Origin: Afipia sp. OHSU_II-C1 | GTDB taxonomy: Bacteria > Pseudomonadota > Alphaproteobacteria > Rhizobiales > Xanthobacteraceae | DNA length: 64,000 nucleotides | Direction of reading: 5' to 3' | Assembly (NCBI RefSeq): GCF_000497575.1 | Contig: NZ_APJI01000010.1 | Span: 372,001 to 436,000 of the forward strand | In this document: positions 18,802 to 35,826 of the stretch, piece by piece | Layout: each line of letters opens with the position of its first letter | Numbering within the stretch: position 1 is the first letter of the stretch | The notes under the pieces: model-generated | Seen by the model: the letters and a program-made list of their open reading frames with translations, nothing else | What the model was told of the DNA's origin: nothing | Databases searched by the model: none | Program-made: the position numbers and the translations under genes

Positions 18802-18886
18802 TGTCTCCGCCGGACCTGATCCGGCAAATCCATCTTCCAGGAAATTTGATTCTCGATGGATACGCGGGTCAAGCCCGCGCATGGAC
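18802..18886. repeat. REP-like palindrome pair in inverted orientation
   Basis: Left arm 18802-18834 contains CCGGACCTGATCCGG and ends in AATCCATC. Right arm 18855-18886 starts GATGGAT and contains CGCGGGTCAAGCCCGCG. Each arm is itself a palindrome, and the two face each other across a 20-base spacer. The same design appears at 35753-35826 and, with a gene between the arms, at 28874-29234. It lies in the gap between the pirin and malonyl-CoA decarboxylase genes. Confidence 0.75.
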
Positions 18887-28873: not shown

Positions 28874-28904
28874 GTCATTGCCGGGCTCAACCCGGCAATC
28901 CATC
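28874..28904. repeat. REP-like palindrome, left arm of the GIY-YIG cassette
   Basis: A 31-base element with a 9-base perfect stem (28877-28885 with 28891-28899) and loop CTCAA. It matches the reverse complement of 29204-29234 at 29 of 31 positions and an element at 35753-35783 equally well. Confidence 0.88.
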
Positions 28905-28911
28905 TTCCGCG

Positions 28912-29195
28912 TCAGCGGACAATCTCGTCGTAAAGATCCAGCCACTCGGGATTGTTTGCGACGATAAGGTCGATTTTCCACTCGCGCGACCAGTGATGTT
29001 TTTTTCGCGCTGGAGTGCGGCAGCGATAGTGTCATGCTGCTCGAAATAGACGAGCGTTTTAACGTCGTAGCGTTTGCTGAAACTCTCAGCGAGTCCTTCA
29101 CGGTGTTCGTAGATGCGCCGTACCAGATCGTTGGTAACACCCACATACAGGGTGCCGCCCGGCCTGCTGGCAAGGATGTAAACCCAATAGCTCAT
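28912..29195 (-). pseudogene. GIY-YIG nuclease family protein, frameshifted
   Basis: The reading frame from ATG 29195 encodes MSYWVYILASRPGGTLYVGV and continues through RIYEHREG and YFEQHDTIAAALQREKNI, a full GIY-YIG N-terminal part of the small UPF0213-like type. Just after the seven-base T-run at 28999-29005 (A-run on the coding strand) the frame becomes unrelated, ending at 28887 inside the palindrome. The expected C-terminus, KHHWSREWKIDLIVANNPEW then LDLYDEIVR and a stop at 28912, lies intact in another frame. A single-base gain or a net four-base loss at the homopolymer explains this. A sequencing error is possible. Confidence 0.82.
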
Positions 29196-29203
29196 TCAAA
29201 GAG

Positions 29204-29234
29204 GATGGATTGCCGGGTCAAGCCCGGCAATGAC
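29204..29234. repeat. REP-like palindrome, right arm of the GIY-YIG cassette
   Basis: Inverted partner of 28874-28904, with a 9-base stem around TCAAG. It sits 8 bases upstream of the nuclease start codon on the minus strand. Confidence 0.88.
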
Positions 29235-29316
29235 GATCTTCAGTTTTGCGAGATCGCACCTCAGGTCTCCTCTCCCACAAGGAGAGGGGAAAGCGCAGCA
29301 GTCTGTTCTGGGCGTA

Positions 29317-35752: not shown

Positions 35753-35826
35753 GTCATTGCCGGGCTTGACCCGGCAATCCATCTTTTCAACGCGCGATCG
35801 ATGCGTGGTTTAAGCCCGCGCATGAC
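35753..35826. repeat. REP-like palindrome pair in inverted orientation
   Basis: Left arm 35753-35783 is the same 31-base element as the arms of the GIY-YIG cassette (two differences from the 28874 copy, none from the reverse complement of the 29204 copy that I can see). Right arm 35800-35826 carries AAGCCCGCGCATGAC. The spacer is 16 bases. It begins just after the export lipoprotein stop codon. Confidence 0.8.

Follow-up and report, generated by a model that had tools for sequence, protein, structure and literature searches.

In the 64,000-nucleotide stretch of the Afipia sp. OHSU_II-C1 genome analysed here (contig NZ_APJI01000010.1, positions 372,001 to 436,000; hereafter the window, whose own coordinates are used throughout), a gene for a small GIY-YIG nuclease lies between two inverted copies of a repetitive extragenic palindrome (REP) of the CGTC type. 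The reading that we consider probable is that the two REPs and the gene form a REP-bounded element, that this CGTC REP subtype has its cognate enzyme in the enclosed GIY-YIG nuclease, and that gene-less REP dimers are its dependants. A first-pass annotation of this DNA had proposed that a GIY-YIG nuclease holds a role like that of a REP-associated tyrosine transposase (RAYT), and this idea is supported by the flanks of the gene in other genomes, by the co-occurrence of gene and REP arms, and by empty recF-dnaN sites in relatives, with the window copy itself being broken. The parts of the element are as follows.

28874..29234, no strand assigned: whole element, spanning 361 bp with both tags included (GTC...GAC), delimited by the inverted pair
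28874..28904, plus strand: left CGTC-type REP arm, with TGTC tag, 9-bp stem, 5-nt loop and CCA tail towards the gene
28912..29195, minus strand: GIY-YIG nuclease gene, frameshifted (PF01541, E 2.7e-13; second frame read separately)
29204..29234, minus strand: right CGTC-type REP arm, with CGTC tag and CCA tail towards the gene

The two 31-base palindromes described earlier as facing each other were recovered with two mismatches (28874-28904, plus strand) and none (29204-29234, minus strand) to a 31-base consensus, and together form an inverted repeat of 34 nt that is 91% complementary across a 293-nt spacing. A third copy of the arm, without mismatch, lies at 35753-35783, and shuffled versions of the window gave zero matches to the consensus. 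The open reading frame (ORF) enclosed by the arms matches the Pfam GIY-YIG family (PF01541) as claimed, but as read the gene is not intact: its frame shifts at or near a run of seven T (28999-29005). The window copy is probably a pseudogene, a decayed member of its class, unless a sequencing error in the T run accounts for the shift. The ORF as read (28887-29195, 102 aa) extends into the left arm, and the conserved C-terminal part (HWSREWKIDLIVANNPEWLDLYDEIVR, stop at 28912-28914) sits in a different frame; the spacing of 7-8 bases between gene and arms given by the first-pass annotation holds for that conserved frame only, with the stop 7 bp from the left arm and the start (29195) 8 bp from the right arm. 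The conserved Tyr, Tyr, Arg and Glu are all retained upstream of the frameshift. The gene occupies the interval between recF and dnaN, as we presume these genes to be from their translations, and all three genes are on the minus strand.

Units of this kind recur in other genomes. The genome of origin has seven GIY-YIG matches, five of which are small and of the window type, and all five lie between inverted palindromes of differing subtypes. A profile built from these five has matches in 68 of the 80 genomes of the host family (0-10 per genome among the matches listed, weak ones included). Because tags and tails vary, a strict hairpin grammar undercounts the arms, and we therefore added a model-free test that takes the best inverted match between the 200-bp flanks (score of at least 18) and counts any inverted pair, CGTC or not. 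Inverted flanks were found by this test at 75 of 92 family copies and, among copies from diverse taxa, at 54 of 76. The controls gave 5 hits in 7560 windows, taken from 20 hand-picked 20-kb stretches at round coordinates, and 6 hits in 992 windows displaced to other positions of the same loci. The check proposed by the first-pass annotation, how often arms flank the gene, came out in its favor. The strict CGTC grammar with both arms facing inward was satisfied at 39/92 family and 33/76 diverse copies versus 0/3780 controls, and of the 47 family genomes in the set, 42 have one or more armed copies. The family set, drawn from the matches listed, comprised 94 copies (5 own, 29 plus 60 others; two lost at contig ends) chosen by score and by multi-copy genomes independently of their flanks; the diverse set took the best-scoring copy per locus from the best 80 of 582 relatives (four lost at contig ends), the copy used at L017 being a second one (L and G numbers denote loci and genomes). 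Armed diverse copies include those of the Bacteroidota isolates Arenibacter, Flagellimonas and Hanstruepera, as well as metagenome-assembled genomes (MAGs) or single cells labelled Omnitrophus, Moraniibacteriota, Marinimicrobia, LCP-89 and Nitrospirae, MAG labels being fallible. A first null made from flanks of different gene loci, in which 31 of 76 copies exceeded the 99% point, was dropped in favor of random and displaced windows because those flanks contain similar REPs and the null was inflated.

The arms are also specific to this class of gene. For the classes compared, 28 of 30 YhbQ-like, 25 of 30 Y1 transposase and 28 of 30 DUF559 loci were used, short loci being dropped. A sister GIY-YIG subfamily from the same family genomes, which we take to be YhbQ-like, had inverted flanks at 1 of 28 genes and CGTC pairs at none. 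Y1 transposases had inverted repeats in 20 of 25 cases when 400-bp flanks were used (7 of 3680 in the control at that width), and GTAG is visible in the printed repeat of 16 of these 20, so that the known RAYT pairing was recovered; a CGTC pair was present beside 0 of the 25, and likewise beside 0 of the 28 DUF559 genes. At the level of sequence, these comparisons establish a class-specific arm-gene-arm unit in many taxa.

According to the 2013 survey by Di Nocera et al. (PMC3733652), CGTC REPs have a CGTC or TGTC tag, a stem of 8-9 bp that starts with A-T pairs, a loop of 4-5 nt and a CCA tail, are found mainly as head-to-head dimers, and are present in five phyla. The window arms, with TGTC and CGTC tags, CCATC tails, a 9-bp stem and a 5-nt loop, are by these features members of the CGTC REP superfamily. 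A pyrimidine (C or T) precedes GTC in 97% of the flanks of 72 gene elements, which were themselves chosen by GTC and CCA. Among 34 distinct 26-nt arms beside genes of many taxa, 272 of the 272 cells of the 8-bp stems are paired, and compensatory change is present in seven of the eight stem pairs, exceeding both shuffles and slid controls. Since these arms came from a hairpin search tolerating at most two mismatches, part of this full pairing reflects how the arms were chosen, which does not account for the variety of pairs; the aligned arms demonstrate hairpins kept by compensatory change. Some loci depart from the common tag: GCTC or GTTC replaces CGTC at L003, L089, L090, L092, L103 and L184, and the genes at the last five are 69-81% identical in DNA to that at L003, so that these genes form a clade distinguished by its tag. 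Genes at L004, L152, L154, L203 and L206 lie between long GTCATTGCGAGGAGCGCAGCGACGAAGCAATCCA-type palindromes, sometimes with whole dimers on each side.

Arm sequence follows protein sequence. Between genomes, arm similarity climbs with protein identity, from 0.26-0.28 at 40-60% to 0.53 at 60-70% and 0.68 above 70%, and the correlation over 2711 pairs of the 75 armed family copies is 0.48. When arms were shuffled within genomes (1000 shuffles, 16 genomes with at least two armed copies being informative), the mean correlation was 0.11 and the maximum 0.31; because the observed value exceeds every shuffle, the covariation is not merely the REP flavor of each genome. The arms also mark where homology between copies ends. 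Among 630 cases of copies in unrelated neighborhoods, with homology reaching more than 30 bp beyond the gene and a strict arm known, 502 had the end of homology no more than 4 bp from the outer edge of the arm (4.8% at random); the cases are pairwise comparisons rather than independent events. Of the 502 ends, 352 lie at the tag or one base outside it. Both arm edges are homology ends in 56 locus pairs. For example, DNA homology between the window element and L155, L160, L187 and L204, all in other genomes, stops within 4 bp of both arm edges, and two copies in G072 are 87.5% alike across the 416 bp from one tag to the other. Direct target repeats, as at the ends of insertion sequences, do not accompany these boundaries: a target duplication of at least 4 bases was found at 0 of 72 gene elements (0.23 expected), and a 4-base repeat at 1 of 27 gene-less dimers (0.08 expected). 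At the same 72 elements, no insertion motif outside the arms was found beyond the pyrimidine before GTC.

Arms also occur as pairs without a gene, and the first-pass annotation had pointed to two such pairs in the window.

18802..18886, no strand assigned: gene-less head-to-head pair, both arms degenerate
35753..35826, no strand assigned: gene-less head-to-head pair; its left arm is identical to the element's right arm, and the arm facing it is degenerate and different

Both are recognizable as head-to-head pairs but are degenerate and weaker than the pair at the gene, and only the arm at 35753 was called in them by the strict hairpin search. Better-preserved examples are found elsewhere in the same genome, where 20 arm places that were fetched comprise 11 strict head-to-head dimers (seven CGTC-1, 105-125 bp; four of the CGTC-3 type, 68-87 bp) and nine places with one strict arm. 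Inside the CCA tail, CGTC-1 dimers are similar to the element at L002 (CCCATCACCCCTGTCG in dimer L350 versus CCCATCACCTCTGTCG in L002), and CCCATAACCCCTGG is common to a G072 dimer and the L157 element. The shared arm types and similar inner ends support the earlier suggestion that gene-less pairs may depend on gene-bearing elements.

Across genomes, arms and gene tend to be found together. Arms were counted with one narrow CGTC-1 pattern, which misses other subtypes including the CGTC-3 type of the window, and a match with E <1e-16 was taken as a strong gene match; the reversed pattern found nothing in 80 family or 249 phylum genomes. At least four arms were present in 29 of 61 family genomes with a strong gene match versus 2 of 19 without (p 0.003), and in 25 of 59 versus 16 of 190 genomes of the phylum sample (p 1.5e-8), both p values being uncorrected for relatedness. 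In the phylum sample arms and gene co-occur, an outcome in favor of the first-pass annotation. The most arms in that sample, 574 of the one narrow pattern, are in G193, whose sole strong gene match (contig C87, 1566-1851) consists of two overlapping frames and a stop and is a broken gene.

Comparison of related genomes indicates that the sites themselves vary in content. The recF-dnaN interval was readable in 26 of the 28 genus-mates searched: nine are empty (26-30 bp), eight contain strict CGTC hairpins (one or more each), which in G088 and G092 form a strict dimer, three have a DUF559 gene, one (G102) has DNA 80% alike over 500 bp to one of the DUF559-bearing intervals, and five have other or degenerate sequence. 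The GIY-YIG gene was found in none of these 26 intervals (tblastn E 0.18 or worse). The search for empty loci proposed earlier found them at recF-dnaN; the filled and empty sites could not be aligned to one single insertion event. In G094 (L133) the interval holds one symmetric GTCAT...ATGAC hairpin without CCA tails, which looks like two arms joined via a deletion between shared ATTGCCGGG and is possibly an excision or deletion footprint. L001 and L002 also have gene-bearing, gene-less and near-empty states among relatives, those at L001 being the gene element, a dimer with the same arms but no gene, a different CGTC dimer, and a near-empty site. The gene sites that were read (recF-dnaN, L001, L002) are intergenic and varied. 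The presence of different REPIN types (REPINs being pairs of inverted REPs), gene elements and near-empty sites at L001 and L002 within the genus suggests turnover at preferred sites. By sequence, then, single sites are found occupied, gene-less and empty, homology ends at the tag, and arms covary with protein.

The protein appears to be maintained. Ratios of nonsynonymous to synonymous substitution rates at L001 are 0.05 (G000-G065), 0.03 (G000-G104) and 0.31 (G065-G104), and at L002 the ratio is 0.05 (G000-G096). In an alignment of 174 relatives, of which five have an in-frame stop, Y8, Y19, R29, H33, E66, K77 and W88 are conserved at 100% (rounded); the Tyr, Tyr, Arg and Glu characteristic of the GIY-YIG superfamily are Y8, Y19, R29 and E66, and the assignment of catalytic residues among the conserved ones is our presumption. 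These data demonstrate purifying selection on the protein, with its putative catalytic residues invariant. The predicted fold (pLDDT 94) is nearest to UPF0213 and Slx1, no Foldseek E-value being below 0.001; sequence matches are 1ZG2 and 1YWL, and homing endonuclease models gave weak matches only.

Under the reading that we favor, the unit would be two head-to-head CGTC REPs around a single minimal GIY-YIG nuclease gene, and would correspond in the CGTC superfamily to what the RAYT REPtron is for GTAG REPs. The nuclease would recognize its cognate hairpin with a YGTC tag, either as an extruded cruciform or as a single strand, and would cut at or beside the tag, after which the arm-bounded segment would be copied to new places by host repair or replication. 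The gene itself would be inherited over long periods and rarely duplicated, and most of the copies made would be short, gene-less, REPIN-like dimers served in trans. Cleavage of the hairpin is suggested by the covariation and the predicted fold; the route from cleavage to insertion is speculative.

Several observations weigh against this reading. Neither cutting nor movement has been observed, both being inferred, and GIY-YIG enzymes are, to our knowledge, hydrolases for which no strand transfer is known. The first-pass annotation had asked for a shared insertion footprint, and none was found. Copies in the same genome are mostly old and divergent (mean protein identity 53%), and 17 of 92 family and 22 of 76 diverse copies failed the flank test. 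A strong gene match is absent from 7 of 24 arm-rich genomes in the phylum sample (G141, with 154 arms; G267, 110; G157, 47; G258, 29; G317, 13; G350, 11; G320, 10) and from 2 of 24 in the family (G023, 13; G034, 11), and gene loss or another enzyme is therefore needed to account for them. Conversely, 25 of 61 family and 26 of 59 phylum genomes have the gene but no arm of the CGTC-1 pattern.

An alternative is that the gene behaves like a homing gene, cutting empty or gene-less REPIN sites and spreading by gene conversion through arm homology, with little true transposition and with arm types exchanged by conversion. The range of states at L001, from gene element through same-arm and different dimers to near-empty site, would fit such a process, as would the occurrence of homing endonucleases among GIY-YIG nucleases and the weak matches to their models. 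We nevertheless regard it as unlikely, since copies of the gene lie at many sites that are unrelated to one another and their shared sequence stops at the tags, so that the gene must reach sites without flanking homology, and since no target sequence outside the arms is conserved beyond the pyrimidine before GTC.

That a RAYT or insertion-sequence enzyme moves the arm-bounded unit, with the nuclease gene as cargo or regulator, is improbable. RAYTs are known REP enzymes (PMC8266576), and a Y1 transposase is present in 10 of 24 arm-rich family genomes, but the association of Y1 transposases with arms is not significant (p 0.06-0.23), no PF01797 match was found in the genome of origin or in the arm-rich G000, G025, G065 and G072, CGTC arms flank 0 of 25 Y1 transposases, and the arms covary with the nuclease. 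A RAYT acting in trans was rejected as the mover on the same lack of PF01797 matches, significant association and CGTC flanks. The transposase associations reported by Di Nocera et al. are few and fortuitous (PMC3733652); the search made here covered Y1 enzymes only. Very doubtful, too, is a host function without mobility, in which the arms would serve a conserved repair nuclease as its terminators, RNA stabilizers or regulatory sites. Purifying selection on the protein, the DNA and RNA roles of REPs in the literature, and an SOS box at one Caulobacter COG2827 gene (PMC1839093) are in its favor, but gene-less arms are repeated as many as hundreds of times in a genome, homology stops at the tags, related sites are empty and the gene is patchily distributed. 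Chance placement of a small gene within REP-rich intergenic DNA, common as REPs are in these genomes, has a negligible probability and is ruled out as a general account by the random, displaced, sister-subfamily and class controls.

The DUF559 genes (PF04480), presumably Vsr-like nucleases, lie within an inverted palindrome of their own, CCCTCTCCCC...GGGTGAGGGG, in 24 of 28 family copies tested, and represent a parallel gene-palindrome pairing. It was observed at L368-L397 and at the recF-dnaN loci L122 (G083), L137 (G090), L142 (G081) and L124 (G102). Gene-less stretches with a DUF559-type palindrome were seen by eye at site L001 in G080 and G085, and the sole YhbQ-like gene with inverted flanks (L288; G000, contig C13, near 181441) has a DUF559-type CCCTCTCCCC palindrome. 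In the window, CCTCTCCCACAAGGAGAGGGG at 29269-29289, immediately right of the element, is a fragment of the CCTCTCCC palindrome of the DUF559 type. A literature search, outside which lay preprints and most subscription journals, turned up no paper containing DUF559.

The element resembles the REPtron or REPIN-RAYT system (TnpA-REP with GTAG REPs) in having one small enzyme gene flanked by cognate inverted, tagged palindromes and many gene-less dimers. In that system, too, enzyme and palindrome subtypes co-evolve (PMC8266576, PMC3733652). The element differs in that the enzyme is a GIY-YIG protein (PF01541) rather than an HUH Y1 transposase and the palindromes are CGTC rather than GTAG. Free-standing GIY-YIG homing endonucleases are likewise selfish GIY-YIG genes, but they are not known to have a conserved target gene or tagged hairpin ends. 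Slx1, which is not known to be mobile, has the GIY-YIG fold, is a nuclease of branched DNA and is among the nearest solved folds. It is a eukaryotic repair enzyme partnered by Slx4 (PMC9071465). The UPF0213 or small UvrC-like GIY-YIG proteins (COG2827) are relatives in sequence and fold (1ZG2, 1YWL); Caulobacter crescentus has three small COG2827 genes, which the source treats as possible repair nucleases without palindromes (PMC1839093), and the YhbQ-like subfamily is armed in 1 of 28 cases.

The element has the tag, stem, loop, CCA tail and head-to-head dimer arrangement of the CGTC REPs of Di Nocera et al., but its dimer encloses a nuclease gene, whereas the survey describes the superfamily as without a dedicated transposase and proposes either that CGTC REPtrons vanished or that the repeats were moved by other transposases (PMC3733652). 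Among the papers listed, our literature search found no link between a GIY-YIG gene and REPs, in agreement with the first-pass annotation, which knew of no established description of such an element; prior description is possible, preprints and most subscription journals lying outside the search. One paper names both 'GIY-YIG' and 'repetitive extragenic', using the terms apart and without a link.

These results suggest that the CGTC REPs, a widespread family of repeats, have in this nuclease the partner that they seemed to lack, and with a conserved enzyme of about 100 residues and its cognate hairpins in hand, the question of the CGTC REP enzyme becomes directly testable. More tentatively, bacteria may carry a class of minimal elements that move with no classical transposase and are made up of a small nuclease gene, its own tagged hairpins and gene-less dimers, in which the enzymatic role was taken separately by HUH proteins (RAYT) with GTAG, by GIY-YIG with CGTC, and by DUF559 with CCCTCTCCCC-GGGTGAGGGG, and for which a cut at a hairpin followed by host repair would suffice to spread DNA. 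If the reading favored here is true, REP populations could be maintained by nucleases other than HUH transposases.
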